Position numbers and translations under genes: made by a program. The notes below the pieces were generated by a model, which did no database searches, had not been told where the DNA came from, and saw nothing but the letters and a program-made list of their open reading frames with translations. A DNA stretch of 30,264 bases from an uncultured Flavihumibacter sp. (GTDB taxonomy: Bacteria; Bacteroidota; Bacteroidia; Chitinophagales; Chitinophagaceae): positions 1 to 30,264 of the forward strand of contig CAMLRX010000056.1 of assembly GCA_946482545.1 (NCBI GenBank), written 5' to 3'. Of this stretch, positions 8,163 to 24,914 are shown piece after piece; the first letter of the stretch is position 1, and the number at the start of each line of letters is the position of its first letter.

Positions 8163-9119
8163 TTATCCGCCGATAGACAGCATACTCAACGCGCTTCCTG
8201 TAAACCGAAGCGGTTGTTTCTGCACCAGGGCTTTTATCAATTGTGTTTCCAGTTCTTTTTCGTTCAACCCTACAATAGAAAATCCTTCATTATTGCTCAG
8301 GCAACCAAACACCTTTCCATCACTGCTTAACCGAAGCCGGTTGCAATCTGAACAGAAGGGCGCTGATTCATTGGCGATGATCCCAAACTCCTGCCCAAAC
8401 GCCGTTTTCCAGTAAGTTGCCGTGGCGCCTTCCTTCCTGGGTAAAGCCATCAGAGGACCAGTGGCGGAAACCCGTTCCAGTATTTCATAGGAACTAAAGA
8501 ACCGGTCGGCACCCTCCCTGAACAGATATCCCATTTTCATCAGTTCCAGGAACCTGAGCACGATTCCCTTCTCACGTGCATATTCCATTAAAGGAAGTAC
8601 CTCACTGTCGTTGATCCCTTTCATAATCACCGCGTTCAGCTTCAACGGAATTCCGGCATCAAGCGTCGCATCGATGCCTTCCAGTACACGACTGCACTGA
8701 TCCCGCCCACTCATTTTCCGGAACACTTCCTCATCCACCGCATCCAGCGATACATTCAATTCATCCAACCCTGCCACGGCCAGTCTCCCCGCGAGTTTAG
8801 GCAAAAGAAATCCGTTCGTGGTCATCTTCACAGCGGGCACTCCCGCGCATTTCAATTCATACACCAACTGTTCAATGCCTTCAAACAACAATGGTTCACC
8901 GCCAGTCAGCCTTACGGTGTCAAAGTTGAGCTTTTTGTGCAAGGACAAAATCAGTTCTTTCACCGGAACCGTACCGTTTTTACCCTGACCGCAACTACGT
9001 TTATTCACGGTGTCTTCTTCCTCATCCACACAATACACGCAGGCGAAGTTGCACCGGTCGAGCAAACTCACCCGGAGCGTGGAAAAACTTCTGCCATATT
9101 GGTCCGTTATCTTTATCAC
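8163..9119 (-). CDS. moaA: GTP 3',8-cyclase MoaA (radical SAM)
   Basis: A 318-residue radical SAM enzyme for the first step of Moco synthesis, turning GTP into 3',8-cyclo-GTP. The N-terminal SAM cluster motif is C23-x3-C27-x2-C30 (DRCNFACVYC). The SAM-binding glycines lie in RLTGGEPLL. The C-terminal substrate cluster is C256-x2-C259-x13-C273 (FCSDCNRLRLSSDG). The C-terminal Gly-Gly needed by this family ends the protein (SMLSIGG). The start codon is GTG, overlapping the TGA of the upstream permease gene as GTGA, so translation is coupled. All cofactor ligands are present and the length is normal. Confidence 0.97.
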   Translation of the reverse strand: MIKITDQYGRSFSTLRVSLLDRCNFACVYCVDEEEDTVNKRSCGQGKNGTVPVKELILSLHKKLNFDTVRLTGGEPLLFEGIEQLVYELKCAGVPAVKMTTNGFLLPKLAGRLAVAGLDELNVSLDAVDEEVFRKMSGRDQCSRVLEGIDATLDAGIPLKLNAVIMKGINDSEVLPLMEYAREKGIVLRFLELMKMGYLFREGADRFFSSYEILERVSATGPLMALPRKEGATATYWKTAFGQEFGIIANESAPFCSDCNRLRLSSDGKVFGCLSNNEGFSIVGLNEKELETQLIKALVQKQPLRFTGSALSMLSIGG

Positions 9120-9850
9120 GCGAGGAATATTAGTTTATAAGATGCAAGCGCCAATACAAACGCGAGCAGGCTTCTGACAAATTTCGTGGAAAATTTCCGG
9201 CTCCCCAACCAACCGCCGATCAAGCCGCCGGTTACAGCCCCCAACATCCACCACCAGCCATACATGGGTATTTCATATACGCTCCATTCTACAGCGCCCA
9301 GACCCGCCGCTGAATTACATACGATGAATGCCGCAGATACCGCAGCAGCCTCTTTCATTCCCGCCCATCCCAATAAAAGCAATACGGGCGTAAGGAATAT
9401 TCCGCCGCCAATATTCAAAAAGCCGGAGGCAAATCCGATAACAGCGCCTATCAGTAATGCAAGCGGAAAACTGAATGGACGCTCCTGCTCCTGCTTCACC
9501 CGCACAATTTCCGCCAGCCGCAGCACAGGATAGATCAGTGCAATGCCGAGCATCATCTTATACAAACGCGGCGGCACATTTACCATAGAGCCCAGGAACG
9601 CGAAGGGCACCGATGTGAGGAGAAACGGCCAAAGCATTTTCCAGGAAAAGTAACCGTTCGACCGGTATTGCAGAAACGAAGAACCCGCCACCAGGATGTT
9701 CATCAGCAAGACCAAAGGTTTGTACACCGGCATCGCAACACCACATAACGTGAACACCGCAATATACCCACTTGCACCGCCATGTCCAACGGCAGCGTAT
9801 AAAAACGCCACAGTTCCCAGGAAAAAAACAATCAGCAACTCCGTGTTCAT
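9116..9850 (-). CDS. TSUP (TauE/SafE) family membrane permease
   Basis: A 244-residue inner-membrane protein with about seven or eight hydrophobic segments. It shows the TSUP pattern of glycine-rich repeats at the start of each half: AAVGHGGASGYIAVFTLCG near residues 20-38, and IGFASGFLNIGGGIFLTPVL near 140. Family members move sulfite, sulfoacetate, thiosulfate or other small organosulfur or inorganic anions. The gene overlaps its upstream neighbour (ATGA) and downstream moaA (GTGA), so it is translated as part of the nitrate/Moco unit. Possible cargoes are nitrite, sulfite or a sulfur source for cofactor synthesis. The sequence alone does not decide this. Confidence 0.88.
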   Translation of the reverse strand: MNTELLIVFFLGTVAFLYAAVGHGGASGYIAVFTLCGVAMPVYKPLVLLMNILVAGSSFLQYRSNGYFSWKMLWPFLLTSVPFAFLGSMVNVPPRLYKMMLGIALIYPVLRLAEIVRVKQEQERPFSFPLALLIGAVIGFASGFLNIGGGIFLTPVLLLLGWAGMKEAAAVSAAFIVCNSAAGLGAVEWSVYEIPMYGWWWMLGAVTGGLIGGWLGSRKFSTKFVRSLLAFVLALASYKLIFLA

Positions 9851-11325
9851 ACGGTAAGTTCGGCCTCAAAATCCATTTCCACAAATTCAGTTTTCGCTGT
9901 TTCACAGGTTGGGCAGCAATAATTTTCAGGCAACAACGCGAACGCTGTATTGGGCGCTATGCCTTGCAGCGCATCTCCATACGCCGGATCGTATATGGTT
10001 TTGCAGTACAGACATTGGTGTACCATCTTTGAGGGCTGTTCCGCGACATGCTCATTGGTAGTGCTTTCGCGGTAAACACTATGATTGATCGCCTCTTCCC
10101 CGTGCTGCAATTCATAATAGTATTTACACAACGCCGAAAGGTAGGTTCCCATCTCCTCCTTTCCCACCCGGCTTCTGAACAATACCAATTCGCGGGTGTT
10201 CGGGTTAAAATCTTTGGTGTAAAGAATATCAAATTTATCGGACGCAGTTTTCGCCTTACCAGTCACTTCCTGGCGACGGATCACCACGGAACCTGTAAGT
10301 CCCGATTTAGGTTTTGTTTTAATAGCGAAACACAATCCATACGTCCGTAAGTCTTCCTTATCGAAATGGTGGACCATCATTCTTTTGAGTATCAACCCCT
10401 CGTCGCTGCCGTCTTCCACCATCCAGTTCAGTTCGTTGGAGGCATGGCGCACATTGATGCGGTGCTTACCCAGCACATAGTCCCAGCGGCGCCTGTCGGC
10501 CGGATTGATATTTTTGATGATGAGCGATTTCCAGGGTGTGATGCAGCACTGTGCCGAAAGTCCGGCCACATCTTCGAGGAACCCGAGCGGAAACGTTTCG
10601 TTTCTCCTGTAAATACCCAGCCAGGTTTGCTGCCCATACATATTAAACCCTTCGTAATAAGGCAACCTGAAATCAGGCAACTGCAATTCTTCCGTTGTCG
10701 GCTGGGTGATGAATTTTTTACGCGCTGACAACAAAGTTCCAAGCATTTCCCCTTTCTGCTGCGCATCCTCCAGCGAAGCGACTTCCTTAGTAGTAATCAG
10801 CTCCTCCAATTCCGCGCAAAGTGCAGGAATATCATAAGAATAAATCAGCACGGGCCATTGGTACAACTGATTCGATTTGGGGAAACGCACCCGCAGGTGC
10901 CAGTAATTGGGCAATGAAGCCGTGATAAAATTGAGATGCCCCGTAAAAAAAGGAACAAAACACTGGTCCTTATCCACCAGGTTTACTTTTAATTTCGGGC
11001 GGAAAGAGAAAGCATCCATAATATCCCGGTAGTCCCCTTCGCGCAGCCAGGCCGATTGATGAAATACATTTTCTGCCCCAAAAGAACTCACGATATTGGG
11101 ATAGGTTTCTTCATTTACTTCAGCAAACAATTCGTGGTTCTGCAACTGCTGGCAACATGCTTCTGTTTTACCCACCGGCACTTTAAAAAATATTTGCTGA
11201 CGGGTGCCGAAACGAAGGGCATCAGCGCCAGCCTCACGGGCAATGCGCACAATATTCAGCAGGTCCCCCGCAGGTATTACACCGCCGCGCTTGTTTATTT
11301 TAATGGTATTGAATTTACGGGCCAT
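9847..11325 (-). CDS. Degenerate nitrite/sulfite reductase-like protein fused to C-terminal rubredoxin
   Basis: A 492-residue, two-part protein. Residues of about 1-420 resemble a nitrite/sulfite reductase half: the ferredoxin-like N-terminal domain is IKINKRGGVIPAGDLLNI and EAGADALRFGTRQQIFFKVP, followed by a NIR/SIR-type core. However, no C-x5-C or C-x3-C siroheme/[4Fe-4S] motif is present, in contrast to NirB in this window. Residues 434-492 are a full rubredoxin with C438-x2-C441 and C471-P-x-C474, plus the typical IYDPAYGD and GIAPNTAF segments. The start overlaps the nitrate reductase stop (TAATG) and the end overlaps the permease start (ATGA). I infer an electron-transfer subunit of the nitrate reductase rather than a sulfite or nitrite reductase. 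Rubredoxin-containing genes in Bacteroidota nitrate clusters are, to my memory, known but little studied. Confidence 0.85.
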   Translation of the reverse strand: MARKFNTIKINKRGGVIPAGDLLNIVRIAREAGADALRFGTRQQIFFKVPVGKTEACCQQLQNHELFAEVNEETYPNIVSSFGAENVFHQSAWLREGDYRDIMDAFSFRPKLKVNLVDKDQCFVPFFTGHLNFITASLPNYWHLRVRFPKSNQLYQWPVLIYSYDIPALCAELEELITTKEVASLEDAQQKGEMLGTLLSARKKFITQPTTEELQLPDFRLPYYEGFNMYGQQTWLGIYRRNETFPLGFLEDVAGLSAQCCITPWKSLIIKNINPADRRRWDYVLGKHRINVRHASNELNWMVEDGSDEGLILKRMMVHHFDKEDLRTYGLCFAIKTKPKSGLTGSVVIRRQEVTGKAKTASDKFDILYTKDFNPNTRELVLFRSRVGKEEMGTYLSALCKYYYELQHGEEAINHSVYRESTTNEHVAEQPSKMVHQCLYCKTIYDPAYGDALQGIAPNTAFALLPENYCCPTCETAKTEFVEMDFEAELTV

Positions 11326-14300: not shown

Positions 14301-14852
14301 CGGGTGGCACCAGGCCGGGTTGGCACCTGTAACATAAAAGCAATCGGCCAGTTCAATATCATCGTAACAAACAGGAACAGCATCTTCTCCCAACGATAAT
14401 TTATATGCAGCCACTGCAGAACTCATACACAAACGGGAGTTCGTATCTATATTATTCGTACCAATAAACCCTTTCACCAGCTTGTTGATCACATAATACT
14501 CTTCCGTGAGGCATTGCCCTGAAACATAGAATCCTACTGAATCGGGACCATACTTCTCTATAAAAGTGCGGAACACAGCGGCGGTTCTTTCCAAAGCCGC
14601 GTCCCAGCTCACCTTTTGCAAAGGCATACTTTTATTGTAGCGCATCTGTGGGAAAAGCAAGCGATCGCTGCGGTCATTAACCGTATAATGCAGGTTCATG
14701 CCCTTACTGCAAAGCTTACCACTGTTTACGGGATGGGACTCGTCGCCCTCTAACAACAGTTGACCCTGTTTGTCTAACTGAAGTTTGACGCCACATCCCA
14801 CCCCGCAGTAACAGCAGGTTGATTTGAACTCGTTATATGCTTGTTGCTTCAT
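11325..14852 (-). CDS. Assimilatory nitrate reductase: NasA catalytic part fused to FAD/NAD(P)H reductase and [2Fe-2S] (BFD) modules
   Basis: A 1175-residue cytoplasmic fusion. The N-terminal [4Fe-4S] domain has C13-x2-C16-x3-C20 and C48 (STCCYCGVGCGVKL, GKLCSKG), as in NasA/NapA. The molybdopterin oxidoreductase domain follows (DTNSRLCMSSAV, YVTGANPAWCHP), and a molydopterin-binding C-terminal domain ends near residue 695. From about 706 a pyridine-nucleotide disulfide oxidoreductase of NirB type begins (VVVGAGAGACGF; second Rossmann VVIAGGGLLGLELA; FAD motif SDPNIFAIGEVAEF). Residues 1115-1170 are a BFD-like [2Fe-2S] domain (CSCH near the start, CGSC at the end). Nitrate is reduced to nitrite with electrons entering through the FAD or a partner. 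No signal peptide is present. It overlaps both neighbours by one base (TAATG). In many bacteria the catalytic and reductase parts are separate genes. Confidence 0.95.
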   Translation of the reverse strand: MKQQAYNEFKSTCCYCGVGCGVKLQLDKQGQLLLEGDESHPVNSGKLCSKGMNLHYTVNDRSDRLLFPQMRYNKSMPLQKVSWDAALERTAAVFRTFIEKYGPDSVGFYVSGQCLTEEYYVINKLVKGFIGTNNIDTNSRLCMSSAVAAYKLSLGEDAVPVCYDDIELADCFYVTGANPAWCHPILWRRVEAHKMANPHVKMIVADPRKTDTAALADIHLQLNPGTDIVLNHAIGRLLIENGDIDPSFLAEHAEGFDAYHTKVFEKTTEESAAICGLEVDELRLAAEYIGRSKAFISMWTMGLNQSAVGVNKNLSLINLHLVTGQIGKPGAGPFSLTGQPNAMGGREVGGLANMLPAHRNLADPKHRAEVQAFWGGKEIQPKPGLTATEMFDALEAGKLKAIWIICTNPLVSLPDVRKAEAALKKAKFVVVQEISNKPETLAFADVILPAAGWAEKEGTMTNSERRITYLPKIVDAPGEAIPDTEIICRFAQKMGYPGFDFQDNAAIFKEHTLLTEGTNVNMTGIDYRLLQEHRSVTWPLKAGEKPREGNRLFTDHQFYTPSAKAVLHPVSDDCTSEGVSPDFPFILTTGRVRDHWHTMSKTGKVNKLKQHIRHAFLEMHPVDAHKLKLSENELVTVRSARGEVRVKLQLSDAIKPGVVFLPMHWGKILGSDLHRTNNITSPKLDPISKEPDFKFCAVHIARYKKPRQTIVVVGAGAGACGFVRAYRELNKEDEIIVFSKEEFSFYNRVMLPDYISGVQQWEELIKMNDAEEAAADIRLLKGVSVTEINRTEKYVLDSRGEKTYWDQVIFATGSRATVPPRIPRLPGIFTMRSRTDADNFKKHLPPDAHVVIAGGGLLGLELAISLREINVRVSVIQRISRFLNRQLDELGSALLGEVIVEHGCEVYFNDELQSCFGQEKLTGIRLKSGKQLDCDALVFAIGTTPNIELAREAGLDCRRGVVVNERLQTSDPNIFAIGEVAEFKGSMYGITAAAEEQAAIVANWMYGDVSARYEGSLPMNIIKIQGFDLCSMGITETPDDPSYEEIVFIDRTRRYYKKCIVHQDKLVGAILIGDKTEMLEFKELIAGKIELSEKRMQLLRSGKKAEPVLGKLVCSCHQVGEGNLQQKINEGCTDMPTLCKTTGAATGCGSCRPQVQRILDKMLDQIPLPETLKLV

Positions 14853-16156
14853 TAATTAAATACAGGTTCCAGTTCCTTTTTTGTTTCAACGGCCTTTGCT
14901 GAAGTTTTCGTAAACCGTGTAAACAATACTACTACGGCCACAACAATCACGATCAATCCGATGTATCCGAATGCTTCCACGTAAGTAATGCTTTCACTTT
15001 TGAAGAGAAAACCGAACAACATACCGCCCACATTTCCACCAGCACCTACCACGCCCGCTACCAGTCCGGCGTTTTTCTCATTAATGAACGGCGTAATCGC
15101 ATAAGTAGCGCCGTTGGCCATTTTGAGGAAGAGTGCGAAGAAGATCATGGAGAAGATGGCCATGCCGAAGGAGCCGGATTGCGCGAACAATACAAGCCCA
15201 AGTCCTTCCATCAACAACACCCCGGCGAGCAGCAATCCCTTTCCCTTCATGCCGTAATTCCTTCCGATCCTGTCCGCGAAAACACCACCCAGTGCACGGG
15301 CAAAAAGATTCATAAAACCGAACACGCCCGCCCAGAATCCCGCGGAAGATTGCTCTAGTTTAAATTCCTGCACGAAATGCAAAGCGGCCACATTATCAAA
15401 AGTGATCTCCATCCCGAAGCATACGGCATAAGCCAGCGCCAGGCTCCAGATGCGCCAGTCTTTGAGGATGGAATAATCTGTTTTCTTCTTTTCAGCCTTT
15501 ACTCTTTCGATGTCCTCGTAGTTGCCCGCCGGCGTATCTTTTGTGAAACGGTAATAGAGAAAGGCCATCACCAGCATCAGTGATCCCGGGAGGATCATCG
15601 CATAGCGCCATGCTTCTTTGTTCGTATAACCGAAGCCTACAATCAGTGCGAACACCAATGGCATCACCATATTCGTTATGCCTCCGCCCAGGTTACCCCA
15701 TCCTCCGGCAACTGCGTTCGCTGTTCCTTTGATCTGGGGTGCGAACATCATAGAAGTATGGAATTGCGTGACCACGAATGAAGCGCCGATTACGCCGATG
15801 GCGAGGCGGAACAAAAGGAAGGAAGTATAATCCTGTGCGAGTCCCACACAAAAAACAGGGATGGATCCGATCAGGAGCAAGGTGGTATATGTTTTACGCG
15901 GCCCCCAGGTATCACACAACCTGCCGATGAGCAAACGGGCAATGATGGTTGCAGAAACAGAGGCGATCACCACGTTTCCGATCTGGGATTTGGTAAGCTG
16001 AAGGTCTTCTTTGATGGTGGGCATCAGCGGTGCCAGTCCAAACCAGCCGAAGAAACACACGAAGAAGGTCATCCACGTAATGTGGAACGTGCGCATCTGC
16101 ACGCCCTTGAAGGAGAATACGTTGAGCGAAGAAAGTGGTTGTTGGTTGTTGGTCAT
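14852..16156 (-). CDS. MFS nitrate/nitrite transporter (NarK/NasA, NNP family)
   Basis: A 434-residue inner-membrane transporter with about twelve hydrophobic segments. NNP-family signatures are visible: a Gly-rich nitrate signature in helix 5 (NAVAGGWGNLGGGITNMVMP) and a second in helix 11 (GLVAGVVGAGGNVGGML). The MFS loop motif RLLIGRLCDTWGPRKTY lies between helices 2 and 3. It imports nitrate for the reductase encoded next, whose start overlaps its stop by one base. The outer-membrane channel gene upstream ends 33 bases before it. Nitrite exchange or export is also possible for this family, but the assimilatory context favours uptake. Confidence 0.94.
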   Translation of the reverse strand: MTNNQQPLSSLNVFSFKGVQMRTFHITWMTFFVCFFGWFGLAPLMPTIKEDLQLTKSQIGNVVIASVSATIIARLLIGRLCDTWGPRKTYTTLLLIGSIPVFCVGLAQDYTSFLLFRLAIGVIGASFVVTQFHTSMMFAPQIKGTANAVAGGWGNLGGGITNMVMPLVFALIVGFGYTNKEAWRYAMILPGSLMLVMAFLYYRFTKDTPAGNYEDIERVKAEKKKTDYSILKDWRIWSLALAYAVCFGMEITFDNVAALHFVQEFKLEQSSAGFWAGVFGFMNLFARALGGVFADRIGRNYGMKGKGLLLAGVLLMEGLGLVLFAQSGSFGMAIFSMIFFALFLKMANGATYAITPFINEKNAGLVAGVVGAGGNVGGMLFGFLFKSESITYVEAFGYIGLIVIVVAVVVLFTRFTKTSAKAVETKKELEPVFN

Positions 16157-16189: not shown

Positions 16190-17716
16190 TTATTTGCGGA
16201 GGAAATCGGGACGGATGTTTACCATGAGCCAGGCCCAGGAACCAGCGAGGCGCGCGGTACCAGGGCTGATATTTTTCGCGTATTCCATGCTGCGGGTGGC
16301 GCCCATAAAAGAAACACCACCTTCCAGCGTTACGATATTATTGAGTTGATAGGAGGAACTGAGATCAACCTCACTGCCGAGGTAGCGTTCCACTTTGGAA
16401 GCATTTTTATCTTTCTGATCATTGGCCAGGAAGAAAGCATGGTAATCGGCGGAAGCGGAAAACCTTTTACCGGGGGCCGTATAACGAACACTGGCCTGCG
16501 GGTTGGAAAGTCCGCCGTTGGGAGAACCCGTTCCTACATAGAAATAATCCATGTAGCCCCAGAATTTATGTGGTGTTCCATACAGCGGATCGAAGCGATG
16601 GTTCTTTCCGTCGGAAGAAAAAGCATCATTACCAGAGAGCAGATCATACCCGATGGAATAAGTGAAAGGTGCGCGTTGGAACGTAAGTGAAGCATAAGCC
16701 ATGTAAGCAGAAAGCTTCGTTCCTTCCCTGTCTTTTCCTGTTTGATAATACAAGCCGGCTTTGTAAAGCAATGTGTTCTTTTTATCGAACGATCCGGAGA
16801 GTTGGGTTCCGAAGCTGAGTCGGGAATGAACGCCTTTGGAACGGAATTTCCTGCCGAAAACATAACCTGTATCTGTACCCGAAACGTTCTGGACCGAATC
16901 CAGTTGGTGGATCCCGAAATGATCAGCCAGCACCAACCCGGAGATGGTGGTAGAAGATTTTTTCCAGGACGCATAAAGAAACTGCATTGCTTTGTTTTGC
17001 TGCGACTGCCCGTTGGTACCCGGCGGATTCGAGAATGCCGGAGCTCCTGTTTTTGAACTGATCCCACCTGCATTCACCAATGGAATAAAACCTGCGGGGG
17101 TAGCTACAAGATTGCCTTTGCTATCGCGAATGGTAGGCAACACATTGGCGGGTGTGTAGTAAGTACCGTTGTATCCGAAAGCATCTGTCTGTTGTGAGAA
17201 AGCGAACCCCGCATCAGCGTTGAATTTCTTTTCCTGCATTCTGAACACCAGCGCATCGTGCCTTCTCCCCTGTTGCAGCCAATCCAGGTTACCCAGCAGG
17301 CGCGCATCATCGTACATCAGTTCCTGCCTGCCGATTTTCAATCCGAGGTAATCCACGAAAGCACTTTTAAAACCAGTATCGGCGCGGTTTTGCAGCACGA
17401 TCTCCGCCCAGGCTTCGTGTACGCCCAGTTTAGCGCCATCGGCATTTGAGATGGAAGAGGCATCCTGGCCCCAAACCCGTACATCCTGCACGGTGGTTTT
17501 GAATTGCACGCGGGCAGCATTGTATCCGAAGCTGAGGCGGGTGCGTTGTGAGGTAAAAAATGAAGGATCGGCATTGTAGGCGCGCAGGGTCCCCACGCCA
17601 TTCCGCCACTCGGTGCGGGTACGGAGTTGCCCGGTAAACTGGAACTGAGCCTTTACAGAGAGAACACCTGAACAGAATGCCATGATGAGAAAAATTTTGG
17701 TTGGTTTGGTACGCAT
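16190..17716 (-). CDS. Alginate-export-type outer-membrane beta-barrel channel
   Basis: A 508-residue outer-membrane protein. I start it at the ATG at 17716-17714, which gives a good signal peptide (MRTKPTKIFLIMAFCSGVLS, then VKAQ). The frame is open upstream to 17821 but that stretch is repeat sequence. The mature part begins FQFTGQLRTRTEWRNG and continues with aromatic-flanked alternating strands (RTRLSFGYNAARVQFKTTVQ, GLKIGRQELMYDDARLLGN), matching the Alginate_exp domain of AlgE-like barrels. Similar genes beside nitrate assimilation genes in Bacteroidota led me to infer a nitrate-permeable channel rather than alginate export; no polymer genes are present. It precedes the inner-membrane nitrate transporter by 33 bases. 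Its upstream region contains nested inverted repeats that separate it from nirD. Confidence 0.85.
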   Translation of the reverse strand: MRTKPTKIFLIMAFCSGVLSVKAQFQFTGQLRTRTEWRNGVGTLRAYNADPSFFTSQRTRLSFGYNAARVQFKTTVQDVRVWGQDASSISNADGAKLGVHEAWAEIVLQNRADTGFKSAFVDYLGLKIGRQELMYDDARLLGNLDWLQQGRRHDALVFRMQEKKFNADAGFAFSQQTDAFGYNGTYYTPANVLPTIRDSKGNLVATPAGFIPLVNAGGISSKTGAPAFSNPPGTNGQSQQNKAMQFLYASWKKSSTTISGLVLADHFGIHQLDSVQNVSGTDTGYVFGRKFRSKGVHSRLSFGTQLSGSFDKKNTLLYKAGLYYQTGKDREGTKLSAYMAYASLTFQRAPFTYSIGYDLLSGNDAFSSDGKNHRFDPLYGTPHKFWGYMDYFYVGTGSPNGGLSNPQASVRYTAPGKRFSASADYHAFFLANDQKDKNASKVERYLGSEVDLSSSYQLNNIVTLEGGVSFMGATRSMEYAKNISPGTARLAGSWAWLMVNIRPDFLRK

Positions 17717-17803
17717 AAGCTGAAGTTTTGGTGTGATTTCTGTGGATGGGGCAATCGTGGGGGTGTTTTCGGGGGATGGGATTTTTTTCACGTGACTGCT
17801 TCG

Positions 17804-18110
17804 TTTCTCGCAAAGACGCAAAGGAGCAAGGACGCAAGGAGCGGTTGGTGGGCTAGCGGGGAATTTCTCGCAACGGCGCTACGACGCTACGGACTGTTTA
17901 ATTGGTAGTGGCTAAATTTTTGCTGAAGCTTATGCGCTGTTTATTTGATTTATTTCTATTAATTCTGTTTGAAAGAAATGAATCAACAGAAACCTAAATA
18001 AGCCTCTAACATTGCGTCGTAGCGCCGTTGCGAGAAACAAAAAATCTCTGTTGAAAAAGAAACAGTTCAAAAACAAACTAACGCCTTGCGCCCTTGCTCC
18101 TTTGCGCTGC
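17804..18110. repeat. Nested inverted repeats in the nirD/channel intergenic region
   Basis: This 427-base gene-free stretch (17717-18143) contains two nested inverted repeat pairs. The inner pair is a perfect 24-bp match: 17864-17887 (starting TTTCTCGCAACGGCG) against 18014-18037. The outer pair matches 22 of 23 bases: 17817-17839 (starting CGCAAAGGAGCAAGG) against 18084-18106. Both left arms follow the same word, TTTCTCGCAA (17804 and 17864), so the arms are also related to each other. The 126-base centre is AT-rich and carries no gene I can support. Dispersed repeats of the TTTGCGAGAAA kind are, to my memory, common between genes in Bacteroidota. No transposase is present. The structure may form a large hairpin within the nir-nas transcript. 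Confidence 0.85.
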
Positions 18111-18589: not shown

Positions 18590-21094
18590 TTATTTTTTCC
18601 CCTGCGCCCCCACCCTCTTCATTTCCCGCATTGGCTCAAACTGCACCGTGGGATCTTTCTCTTCCGGCGCATTCACGAAATGCACAAACCGCTTCCTGAT
18701 CTCTGGATTTTCAACCGCCTCTTTCCACTCGCATTTGTAATTGTTGACAAGCTGCTGCATTTCCGCTTCCAGTTGGTCGTTGATGCCCAGGCTATCGTTC
18801 AGCACCACGTTCTTCAGGTAATCAATTCCGCCCTCCATTTTGTTGAGCCAGGTAGCGGTACGTGTAAGCGGATCAGCAGTTTTTATATAGAACATGAGAA
18901 ACCGGTCGATATAGCGGATACAGGTATCCGAATCAATATCTGAAGCCAGTAAAAGGGCGTGTTGTGGTTTAGAACCGCCATTGCCGCAAACGTAGAGGTT
19001 CCAGCCTTTTTCGGTGGCGATGATACCAAAGTCTTTACTCTGTGCTTCAGCGCATTCCCGGATGCAACCGGACACCGCCGATTTTATTTTATGCGGCGCA
19101 CGCAAACCACGGTACCGCTCTTCAACACGAATGGCGAAGCTTACGCTGTCGTGGAGTCCGAAGCGGCACCAGGTCGAGCCCACGCAACTTTTTACGGTAC
19201 GCAACGCTTTTCCGTAGGCATGTCCGCTTTCGAAGCCGGCGGCTATCAGGGCTTCCCAGATGTAGGGAAGGTCAACGAGGTGCGCACCAAACAGGTCGAT
19301 GCGCTGGCCACCAGTGATTTTGGTATAGAGGTTGTATTTTTTCGCGACTTCACCAATCACAATAAGTTTATCCGGCGTAATCTCTCCTCCGGGAATACGT
19401 GGCACCACGGAATAAGTGCCGCCCTTCTGAATATTGGCGAGAAAGCGGTCGTTGCTGTCCTGGGCGGTATCGTTTCCTTTCGCAAGGATCATTTCGTTCC
19501 ACAAACTGGCCAGGATACTTGATACCAGAGGTTTGCAGGTTTCGCAACCATCACCCTGACCAATTTCAGAAAGCACTTCATCGTAGGACGTATATTTTCT
19601 GATCTTAATCAGGTCGTAAAGTTCTTGTCTGCTATGGGGGAAATGCTCACAGATAACGGTACGTATGTATTTGCCCTGCGCCTTCAGTGTTGCATTGATA
19701 ATATCCTTCACCATGGGCACGCAACCACCGCAACCGGTTCCAGCCTTACAACATTTTTTTATGGAATCAAGGGTTTCATTGCCATTCTCCACAGCGGAAA
19801 CCAATGTGGCTTTTGTGATGCCTTCACAACTGCAGATCAGCGCGTCATCGGGGAGCGCCATTACACCGGCCCCAACATCTGTTTTACCGCCACGGGCGCC
19901 GAGGAGTAGGTCTTCCGGATTTTCCGGCAGTAGCATTTTATTTTTACAGGTCTGAAGCAGTTGGTTGTACGCTTCCGCATCTCCGACCAGTACACCGCCC
20001 AACAGCAATTTGCCATCGGAAGATATATTGATTCGTTTGTAAACGCCTTTGGCGGAATCTTCATATACGATGGAGCGGGCCGATTCGCCTGCGGCGAAAG
20101 GATCGCCGAAACTGGCCACATCCACGCCGATGAGTTTCAGTTTGGTACTCATATCAAACCCCGTGAAATACTTCTCACCGCCTGTAAGCTTCGTAGCCAC
20201 CACATCTGCCATTTCGTAGCCCGGCGCCACAAGTCCATAAATCATTCCCTGGTAGAGGGCGCATTCGCCGATGGCGAACACGTTGGGATCGCTGGTTTCC
20301 ATGCTTTCATTTACAACGATACCACCACGCTGACCAACTTCAATCCCTGATAATTTGGCGAGTTCATCACGCGGACGGATACCCGCTGATATCACCAGCA
20401 TATCCGCTTCAAGAATGGTGTCGTCTGAAAACTGAAGGCCGGAAACGGTTTCCTCCCCGATGATGGAGGAAGTAGCCATACTGGTGTGGATGGTAAGACC
20501 GAGCGATTCGAGCTTCGACTGCAACAGGCGGGAGCCGGCATCATCGATCTGGCGGGGCATGAGGCGGGGCGCGAACTCAATTACATGGGTATCGGAAATA
20601 CCCAGGTCGAGCATGGCCTTAGCGGCTTCCAGCCCGAGGAGTCCGCCCCCCATCACTACTCCTTTGCGTGCATGTTTCGCATGAGCCTGCATCAGCTCAA
20701 GGTCTTCTATTGTGCGGTAAATGAATACGCCTTGCTTCTCCACCCCGGGGATGGGTGGAACGAAGGCGGCAGAACCGGTTGCGAGAACGAGATAATCGTA
20801 GGAAATTTCTACTCCGTGGTAGGAATGAACGGTCTTTGCCGTGCGGTCGATCCGTTGAACAGGATCACCCAGGTAAAGCCTGATGCCATGCTCCTCGTAC
20901 CAACTCAAAGGAGCCATGGTTAATTCTTCCGCCGATGTTCCGGAGAACCAGGCGCTGAGATGGACCCTGTCGTATGCAGGACGGGCTTCTTCCCCGAAAA
21001 CTACCAGTTCAATGGAGGCATCGCCTTTTTTGGCGAGCAACTTCTCACAAAACTTGTACCCCACCATCCCATTTCCAATAACTACTACTCTCAT
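18590..21094 (-). CDS. nirB: Assimilatory nitrite reductase large subunit NirB (NADH, FAD, siroheme)
   Basis: An 834-residue enzyme reducing nitrite to ammonium by six electrons. The N-terminal FAD/NADH part has VVVIGNGMVGYKF at the start, GVVMGGGLLGLEAAKAM near residue 150 and the FAD motif TSDPNVFAIGECALYQG. Two BFD-like regions follow: LICSCEGITKA with CGGC, and a second ending GDGCETCKP. The nitrite/sulfite reductase domains contain the siroheme and [4Fe-4S] ligands as C-x5-C (CVGSTWC, about residue 635) and C-x3-C (CIREC, about residue 677). The length is normal for NirB. It is divergent from the siroheme methyltransferase gene with a 198-base shared AT-rich promoter region, and is likely the first gene of the nir-nas-moa unit. 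Confidence 0.97.
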   Translation of the reverse strand: MRVVVIGNGMVGYKFCEKLLAKKGDASIELVVFGEEARPAYDRVHLSAWFSGTSAEELTMAPLSWYEEHGIRLYLGDPVQRIDRTAKTVHSYHGVEISYDYLVLATGSAAFVPPIPGVEKQGVFIYRTIEDLELMQAHAKHARKGVVMGGGLLGLEAAKAMLDLGISDTHVIEFAPRLMPRQIDDAGSRLLQSKLESLGLTIHTSMATSSIIGEETVSGLQFSDDTILEADMLVISAGIRPRDELAKLSGIEVGQRGGIVVNESMETSDPNVFAIGECALYQGMIYGLVAPGYEMADVVATKLTGGEKYFTGFDMSTKLKLIGVDVASFGDPFAAGESARSIVYEDSAKGVYKRINISSDGKLLLGGVLVGDAEAYNQLLQTCKNKMLLPENPEDLLLGARGGKTDVGAGVMALPDDALICSCEGITKATLVSAVENGNETLDSIKKCCKAGTGCGGCVPMVKDIINATLKAQGKYIRTVICEHFPHSRQELYDLIKIRKYTSYDEVLSEIGQGDGCETCKPLVSSILASLWNEMILAKGNDTAQDSNDRFLANIQKGGTYSVVPRIPGGEITPDKLIVIGEVAKKYNLYTKITGGQRIDLFGAHLVDLPYIWEALIAAGFESGHAYGKALRTVKSCVGSTWCRFGLHDSVSFAIRVEERYRGLRAPHKIKSAVSGCIRECAEAQSKDFGIIATEKGWNLYVCGNGGSKPQHALLLASDIDSDTCIRYIDRFLMFYIKTADPLTRTATWLNKMEGGIDYLKNVVLNDSLGINDQLEAEMQQLVNNYKCEWKEAVENPEIRKRFVHFVNAPEEKDPTVQFEPMREMKRVGAQGKK

Positions 21095-21292: not shown

Positions 21293-22063
21293 ATGAAAAC
21301 ACCGTTTCTGAGTTTGGTGGGTGCAGGTCCTGGTGATCCCGAGTTAATCACCTTAAAAGCAATACGTTGTATAGAACGTGCAGATGTAATTTTATACGAT
21401 GCACTGGCAAGCACCCAATTGCTCAACTATGCGAAGCCTGAAGCAAGAATAATATATGTAGGAAAACGTTATGGATGCCACGCCCTTTCTCAACAGGAGA
21501 TAAACCAGTTGATTATTGAGGAAGCGTTTAACCATGGCCATGTGGTAAGGCTGAAAGGCGGAGATCCCTTTGTATTTGGAAGGGCACAGGAGGAAATAGA
21601 TGCGGCCACCGAAGCAGGAATTCCTACTGAAGTGATTCCCGGTATCACCAGCGCCATTGCTGTACCTGCCGCTCAAATGATTCCACTCACCTGCCGGGGC
21701 ATCAGTGAAAGTTTCTGGGTAACAACAGGTACTACACGGTCAGGTGATGTTTCAGGCGATATCAGGCTCGCCGCGCAATCCACCGCCACCATTGTAATCC
21801 TGATGGCCATGAGTAAACTGGAAGCCATTATGGAGATTTTTACCGCGGCCGGGAAAGCAGAAACACCCGTCGCCATTATACAGGACGGCACCACTGAAAG
21901 GGAAAGGATGGTAATCGGCAAAGTAAAAGACATCAGTTTCAGGGCGCAACACGCCGGACTGGGCAATCCCGCCATCATCGTGGTTGGGGAAGTCGTTAAC
22001 CTGCACAACCGGCAACTCCCTGGATCACTTGCAGCAGCAGGACTTTTTTATGAAAGCAAGTAA
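21293..22063 (+). CDS. cobA: Uroporphyrinogen-III C-methyltransferase (SUMT, siroheme synthesis)
   Basis: A 256-residue S-adenosylmethionine-dependent enzyme that methylates uroporphyrinogen III at C2 and C7 to give precorrin-2, the first committed step to siroheme. Signatures are SLVGAGPGDPELITLKAIRC at the N-terminus, VVRLKGGDPFVFGRAQEE in the middle, and PTEVIPGITSAIAVPAAQ; the length fits single-domain SUMT. It lacks the dehydrogenase/ferrochelatase part of CysG, so those steps are encoded elsewhere. It supplies the NirB cofactor, which explains its divergent placement beside nirB. No cobalamin genes are nearby, so a siroheme role is preferred. The gene symbol follows the general name for SUMT. 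Confidence 0.94.
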   Translation: MKTPFLSLVGAGPGDPELITLKAIRCIERADVILYDALASTQLLNYAKPEARIIYVGKRYGCHALSQQEINQLIIEEAFNHGHVVRLKGGDPFVFGRAQEEIDAATEAGIPTEVIPGITSAIAVPAAQMIPLTCRGISESFWVTTGTTRSGDVSGDIRLAAQSTATIVILMAMSKLEAIMEIFTAAGKAETPVAIIQDGTTERERMVIGKVKDISFRAQHAGLGNPAIIVVGEVVNLHNRQLPGSLAAAGLFYESK

Positions 22064-23963: not shown

Positions 23964-24914
23964 TTAATGACCACCGCCCTTCATCATTTTCCGGGCATGA
24001 AAAACCGCAGGTAATATAGCCTCCAGGCTTTCCCGTGCACCATCAGTACTTCCGGGAAGCGTTACAATCAGGGTTTCCGCGATGGAACCGGCCACCCCCC
24101 TGCTCATCATGGCAAGTGGCGTACGCTGCTGACCGAAAGCACGCATGGCTTCCGTAATGCCATCTGCATCGCGCTCCAGTATTTCCTTTACAGCGGAAAC
24201 GGTATTGTCGCGCGGCCCTAATCCTGTACCGCCAGTTGTAAAAACAAAATGCACATCTTCGTTCACCCATTCCCGTATTTTTTCCTGGATGATTTGTTTT
24301 TCATCAGGAACAATACTGTAGTGTTTTACGTTCGCGTTTACAGCAGTAAGCATTTCCATTATGAGTTTACCACTTTTGTCCTCCCGCTTTCCCTCTGCCG
24401 TGGAATCGGAGCAAACCAACACGGCGCATGTGGGCGGGGTGTTGAAATATTTTTTTCTATCCGATTTACCACCTTTCTTCTCTAAGAGCTTGATTCCCCC
24501 TATTTCCAAAGCGGTATCTACGGGCTTCAGCATATCATATATTTCCAATGCGGCCACGGAAACACCAGTAAGCATTTCCATTTCAATGCCGGTTCTACCG
24601 ATGGAACGCGCTTCTCCCATGATCACAATGCCCGTTCTTCCATGGATGGCTGCTCCAAAAAAAGCTTCGTGTTTCTCTTTCTCCAGGAACTCGAACCAGA
24701 TGTCCATCCCATCAATTGCTACCGGATGACAATGTGGAAGCAGCGTGGGCGTACTTTTTGCGCCCACGAAGCCGGCGGCACGCGCCACATCGAACAGGTT
24801 TCCTTTGGGAAGATGCCCGGCCTTAATGGTTTCCAGCGTATTTTCAGAGCAGAAGACGATACCGGTGGCCAAAGCGGTACGCAGCGTAGTTGTTTTGTGG
24901 GTAATATCGCGCAT
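23964..24914 (-). CDS. moaCB: Bifunctional MoaC-MoaB fusion
   Basis: A 316-residue fusion. Residues 1-150 are MoaC, cyclic pyranopterin monophosphate synthase: AGHLPKGNLFDVARAAG, TLLPHCHPVAIDGM, GIEMEMLTGVSVAAL with E111 and E113, and EIYDMLK with D127 and K130. Residues of about 160-316 are MoaB/MogA-like, which adenylates molybdopterin: CAVLVCSDS, FVFTTGGTGLGPRDNTV and TLPGSTDGARESLEAILP. The joint lies in a short basic linker (KKGGKSDRKKYFNTPP). Compared with E. coli MoaC there is an insertion of about 13 residues between the CHP motif and the GIEME motif. MoaCB fusions are known in Bacteroidota. It starts 12 bases after moeB ends. No separate moaB is seen in the window. Confidence 0.95.
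   Translation of the reverse strand: MRDITHKTTTLRTALATGIVFCSENTLETIKAGHLPKGNLFDVARAAGFVGAKSTPTLLPHCHPVAIDGMDIWFEFLEKEKHEAFFGAAIHGRTGIVIMGEARSIGRTGIEMEMLTGVSVAALEIYDMLKPVDTALEIGGIKLLEKKGGKSDRKKYFNTPPTCAVLVCSDSTAEGKREDKSGKLIMEMLTAVNANVKHYSIVPDEKQIIQEKIREWVNEDVHFVFTTGGTGLGPRDNTVSAVKEILERDADGITEAMRAFGQQRTPLAMMSRGVAGSIAETLIVTLPGSTDGARESLEAILPAVFHARKMMKGGGH

Follow-up and report, generated by a model that had tools for sequence, protein, structure and literature searches.

The window studied here is a 30,264-nucleotide stretch of an uncultured Flavihumibacter species (assembly GCA_946482545.1, contig CAMLRX010000056.1) and is, by its predicted genes, a nitrate-assimilation island. Its minus strand encodes, in order, NirB, a NirD-like Rieske protein, an outer membrane channel, NarK, a nitrate reductase fused to a flavin adenine dinucleotide (FAD) module (NasA-FAD-BFD), a protein of 492 amino acids (aa), a TauE/SafE protein, MoaA, MoaE, and a MobA-like protein. 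The subject of this report is the 492-aa protein, whose gene runs from 11325 to 9847 with an ATG start. That ATG shares one base with the stop codon of the 1175-aa nitrate reductase (TAATG), and the gene's own stop overlaps the TauE/SafE gene by 4 bp (ATGA), as in a translationally coupled operon. The gene, its start, and the TAATG junction had been given in a first-pass annotation of the window and were borne out on the minus strand. We find that the protein joins a sulfite reductase (SiR) fold that has lost its cluster cysteines to a C-terminal rubredoxin and that relatives occur in every NirB-encoding Bacteroidota genome found.

Pfam searches placed a NIR_SIR_ferr half domain (PF03460) at residues 5 to 52 (E 7.8e-6; 26 bits versus a cut-off of 24) and a Rubredoxin domain at residues 436 to 481 (E 2.5e-15). 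The predicted model of the 492-aa protein has the SiR fold, with two ferredoxin-like and two NIR_SIR repeats. As modeled, the SiR-like part spans the whole two-repeat core, beyond the N-terminal domain; the N-terminal 79 residues of Escherichia coli sulfite reductase hemoprotein (SiRHP) are unmatched, and the rubredoxin is an addition of the 492-aa protein. The C-terminal domain has the Fe(Cys)4 motif and fold of a rubredoxin, and its cysteines (C438, C441, C471, and C474) are invariant in 100/100 aligned relatives, so the intact rubredoxin of the first-pass annotation stands. An alignment of 100 diverse relatives contained 20 invariant columns at a mean column identity of 45%. Among 7996 candidates scored, 2384 proteins matched at an E value of 1e-3 or lower; the match covered 95 to 100% of the 492-aa protein in all of the best 120 of these, and the matches beyond may include rubredoxin-only proteins. 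The best PDB match of the rubredoxin domain was NorV, and the FAD module of the NasA fusion matched NorW. The four cysteines and fold are common to PF00301 rubredoxins, but here they form the C-terminal domain of a 490-aa protein, with a shorter loop in Runella-type relatives. Those Runella-type proteins have no precomputed PF00301 assignment, and the loops separating the two cysteine pairs are much shorter in L036 and L064. Most close relatives carry a 5-residue stretch plus C-x2-C on the helix preceding "TPWKS" (window positions ~10545 to 10575); 5 of 120, from the window's clade, do not.

The siroheme site was compared with that of SiRHP, in which we take C434, C440, C479, and C483 to be the cluster cysteines and C483 the siroheme ligand. 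The 492-aa protein has no cysteine at any of the four equivalent positions. The PF01077 profile (NIR_SIR, 4Fe-4S half) did not match the protein at an E value of 1 or lower; the same profile matched the window's NirB at 1e-21, and NirB carries both CVGSTWC and CIREC, as first annotated. The motif pair C-x5-C then C-x3-C was present in the core of 0/174 distinct proteins of alignments A1 and A2, the 492-aa protein included, and of 0/32 in a genome-derived set, in a scan that left out the last 60 residues. Alone, C-x5-C occurred in 12 of the 32 genome-derived rows, in every case on the C-x2-C helix around residue 254, away from the cluster position. The alignment is gappy at the second cysteine pair, where residue pairing is uncertain; the absence of the motif is independent of pairing.

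The distal side of the site is partly retained. Of the presumed SiRHP substrate tetrad (R83, R153, K215, and K217), the R83 equivalent is K or R in 97/97 nongap rows of A2 and in 30/32 of the genome set, and the K217 equivalent is K in 97/100. The R153 equivalent is replaced (P 63, Q 27, E 4, H 3, A 2, and S 1 of 100), and that of K215 varies, being R or K in 60/100. Equivalents of R117, Q118, and N154 are kept in 99/100, 99/100, and 100/100 relatives, respectively, and those of Q121, H123, R214, and N481, presumably siroheme contacts of SiRHP, are not kept. These comparisons of sequences and a predicted model show the core to be a siroheme enzyme fold minus the cluster cysteines, with part of the distal site retained. 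The first-pass description of a NIR/SIR-like protein without siroheme motifs, a retired siroheme fold, was right about the missing motifs and the retirement; the SiR-like part is the whole core and not the N-terminal domain alone. The protein differs from the siroheme reductases (E. coli CysI/SiRHP, Mycobacterium tuberculosis NirA, and plant NiR) in lacking the cluster and proximal cysteines and the R153 equivalent. CobG precorrin-3B synthase is a NIR/SIR relative that has given up siroheme, but unlike the 492-aa protein it retains a 4Fe-4S cluster and works as an enzyme.

Occurrence was tallied in two Bacteroidota samples that overlap: 395 genomes from the phylum and 187 from the order to which G192 belongs. 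The two are not independent draws, and four genomes common to both carrier lists were counted once. Merged, the samples contain 91 distinct carrier genomes, 89 of them with NirB. All 89 NirB genomes found match the 492-aa protein (one copy is broken), and no NirB genome lacked a match. In the phylum sample, a relative of the core was found in 29 genomes (30 places), the fusion in 33, NirB in 28, and all three in 28; the other 94 tallied genomes match with the rubredoxin part only, among the matches listed. The order sample has 66 matching genomes and 65 NirB genomes. The two lists agree except for G490, in which NasA adjoins the 492-aa gene, the contigs are small, and NirB was not found. Two gene copies each occur in G002, G488, G525, G537, and G555.

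Co-occurrence with NasA-FAD, a check proposed with the first-pass annotation, held: both modules are present in 90/91 carriers (28/29 in the phylum sample and 66/66 in the order sample) and, as far as checked, lie within one open frame in 85/91 (28 and 61/66). In the other five order genomes (G523, G473, G494, G503, and G516), the frame is interrupted, cut by a contig end, or missed by the search pattern. In G128, where the copy lies close to a contig end and stops at 429 aa, neither NasA-FAD nor NirB was found. Conversely, NirB and the 492-aa protein were both not found in five fusion genomes (G221, G052, G010, G157, and G181; best match E 0.68). These five encode a NirA-type open reading frame (ORF) of 595 to 678 aa with the cluster motif, at most about 4 kb from NasA. 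Four of them form one clade of the NasA tree, and the fifth has no full NasA frame. At L128 to L131, loci of fusion genomes without the 492-aa protein, two ORFs of about 205 and 435 aa separate NirA from NasA, and the starts of both resemble that of NirA ("FTPEQRAWLN..."). A motif-bearing SiR/NirA-type ORF was present in 30/30 carriers tested, so the 492-aa protein is not standing in for SiR/NirA.

In the window, the 492-aa gene is encoded with nitrate and nitrite reductases, and its neighborhood recurs in relatives. A first set of 31 loci (29 phylum-sample genomes, one with two copies, plus G001) had a same-strand NasA-FAD upstream in 29/31, within 300 bp in 27; the other two loci were cut by a contig end. 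The same neighborhood was found on plasmids, in 4/4 Bacteroidota records covering most of the protein. In the order set, a same-strand NasA-FAD lies upstream at 61/66 loci, within 300 bp at 50. At L144 (G519), the 492-aa gene and the stop end of NirB share 4 or 10 bp, and NasA is divergent and 6.6 kb away. L155 is the second copy of G555, with no NasA or NirB nearby; the upstream view of L172 ends at a contig end; and at L176 the 1.8 kb visible holds an upstream MoeA-like ORF, judged by its start alone. L180 (G413) is unlinked to both partner genes. All five of these genomes have NasA-FAD elsewhere, and relatives are thus not regularly found away from nitrate reductase, the outcome that would have spoken against the first-pass annotation. 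At L145 and L146, NirB is also a close neighbor.

Table 1. Features of the 492-aa protein and its surroundings in the window
Feature	Position	Strand	Remarks
Pseudo-SiR/rubredoxin protein, 492 aa	9847..11325	minus	
SiR-like two-repeat core, residues 1-427	10045..11325	minus	model 6-426 aligned to SiRHP 80-568
Flexible linker, about residues 421-430	10036..10065	minus	predicted local distance difference test (pLDDT) <50 at 422-429
Rubredoxin domain, residues 436-482	9880..10020	minus	C438, C441, C471, C474
Nitrate reductase fusion, NasA (Mo/4Fe-4S)-FAD/NADH reductase-BFD 2Fe-2S, 1175 aa	11325..14852	minus	
NirB, siroheme nitrite reductase large subunit	18590..21094	minus	CVGSTWC and CIREC intact
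NirD-like Rieske protein, 118 aa	18144..18500	minus	
NarK-family nitrate/nitrite transporter	14852..16156	minus	
Alginate-export-type outer membrane channel	16190..17821	minus	within operon
TauE/SafE family exporter	9116..9850	minus	start overlaps 492-aa gene's stop by 4 bp
MoaA (molybdenum cofactor)	8163..9119	minus	
Tetrapyrrole methylase (PF00590)	21293..22063	plus	probably SUMT/CobA, siroheme precursor

The window also encodes MoeA, a MoaC-MoCF_biosynth fusion (23964-24914), and a ThiF-rhodanese protein. Kin of the channel gene were found at 22 of 33 loci searched, two of which have no relative of the 492-aa protein; its product is a candidate nitrate-specific outer membrane channel. A TauE/SafE gene, 52% identical, follows the 492-aa relative in L067, and the exporter might release nitrite or sulfite.

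We favor, at about an even chance of being right, the reading that the 492-aa protein is a catalytically dead, SiR-derived subunit that tethers a rubredoxin and serves electron traffic in the NADH-dependent NasA-FAD/NirB(D) module, by which these Bacteroidota convert nitrate to ammonium. Judged from gene content, its partner is the NasA-FAD and NirB module and not nitrate reductase alone, because all NirB genomes match, NirA-type fusion genomes lack the protein, and the gene directly follows NirB in G519. The first-pass annotation had instead proposed an electron route into the nitrate reductase, which these observations do not favor. The fusion carries motifs for every cofactor of an NAD(P)H-FAD-2Fe2S-4Fe4S-Mo chain, and this motif-complete chain does without the 492-aa protein where NirA replaces NirB, which argues against a simple supply of electrons to nitrate reductase and for coupling to NirB.

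Under the favored reading, the core derives from an ancient siroheme sulfite/nitrite reductase. Its [4Fe-4S]-siroheme cysteines are lost, as sequence and model show, but the fold as a whole and some of the distal site persist. The core may dock on the flavin module of NasA-FAD, on NirB, or on both. The rubredoxin, which hangs on a flexible tether in the predicted model, would most likely pass single electrons between the NasA FAD module and the NirB(D) side, a relay that could keep nitrate and nitrite reduction in step. Its role would be comparable to that of the NasG ferredoxin of Paracoccus denitrificans. According to the portions of PMC4724949 and PMC6618116 available, one ferredoxin serves both reductases in Paracoccus NasB-NasG-NasC, for which a complex is suggested; by analogy, this is the nearest functional precedent. 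NasG and the Bradyrhizobium Flp are likewise electron proteins of nas operons with a nitrate reductase, but one is a ferredoxin and the other a flavoprotein, and an SiR-like core is described for neither in the accessible part of PMC4724949.

Several observations weigh against this reading. NasA-FAD and NirB are both equipped with an NADH/FAD site, which leaves no obvious need for a further carrier, and the iron site of the rubredoxin could be structural. The core hidden Markov model does not match the window's NirB (E 1.5). The gene of G413 is unlinked to either partner, and G468, a NirB genome, has its copy broken into two fragments with stops. The contrast between NirB and NirA genomes probably hangs on a single branch of the tree, perhaps one event, because four of the five fusion-only genomes share a clade. 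A bolder version is unlikely: the pseudo-SiR would be the obligate organizer of a nitrate-to-ammonium complex in Bacteroidota, holding NasA-FAD and NirB together, its relic oxyanion pocket would hand over nitrite, and the tethered rubredoxin would swing between both flavin systems, with the result that no toxic nitrite escapes.

Other functions were also considered. The core might hold NasA or NirB for insertion of molybdenum cofactor (Moco), Fe-S, or siroheme, with the rubredoxin as a redox- or iron-sensing part. The gene lies among Moco genes and accompanies NirB, and the available text of PMC6618116 remarks on the absence of a NasC chaperone from the nas cluster of Paracoccus. However, the same NasA-FAD fusion occurs without the 492-aa protein in five genomes, and SiR-type siroheme ORFs occur in genomes both with and without it. 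NarJ-type chaperones also have a fold unrelated to the core, and we consider such a maturation factor unlikely. Retention of the R83, R117, Q118, N154, and K217 equivalents despite cluster loss is what would be expected if the distal site bound nitrite or nitrate and either passed it from NasA to NirB or gated electron flow. Such a relay or sensor is distinctly unlikely, as R153 has been replaced, only 60/100 relatives have a basic residue in place of K215, and the kept residues may merely hold the fold. The fold and remaining distal residues, with a tetrapyrrole methylase gene in the window, would also suit an active enzyme that still binds a tetrapyrrole, siroheme or another, in the absence of a cluster, but loss of the cluster cysteines, including the proximal C483 equivalent, and of the Q121, H123, R214, and N481 equivalents makes this highly unlikely.

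The NorV and NorW matches, together with the Flp/Bjgb precedent in Bradyrhizobium (in the accessible part of PMC4724949), raise the idea of a nitric oxide defense in which the rubredoxin and the NorW-like FAD module would both be used. Yet domain searches recognized no diiron or heme nitric oxide site in the 492-aa protein, which goes with NirB, and we give this role scarcely any weight. The lost cluster site, the placement of NirA inside the nas cluster in each of the five genomes without the gene, and the broken appearance of the G128 and G468 copies would suit a decaying vestige of an earlier NirA that persists in the operon. That explanation, already disfavored, is barely credible against a match in 89/89 NirB genomes, invariant rubredoxin cysteines, and 20 invariant columns over 100 relatives.

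Database names of the relatives are mostly "rubredoxin" (or variants) or "hypothetical protein," and a few are half-domain or sulfite-reductase-like names. The available portion of PMC12528234 lists a nitrate reductase, a nitrite reductase, a major facilitator superfamily transporter, and a "rubredoxin" in the Aquirufa nitrate operon; matched by annotation name and operon content, the last is probably a gene of the 492-aa type. Searches of the open-access literature aimed at the protein turned up no functional study, subscription papers being mostly outside coverage. To our knowledge, pseudoenzymes are well known in signaling and few in redox metabolism. In the present case, a siroheme enzyme fold stripped of the cysteines for its cofactor, and matched in all 89 NirB Bacteroidota genomes found, hides under a plain "rubredoxin" annotation. 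The gene opens a simple genetic route to the role of rubredoxin in nitrogen assimilation, and a link between both reductases, if the protein provides one, would reveal how reduction of nitrate is coupled to that of nitrite in these bacteria.
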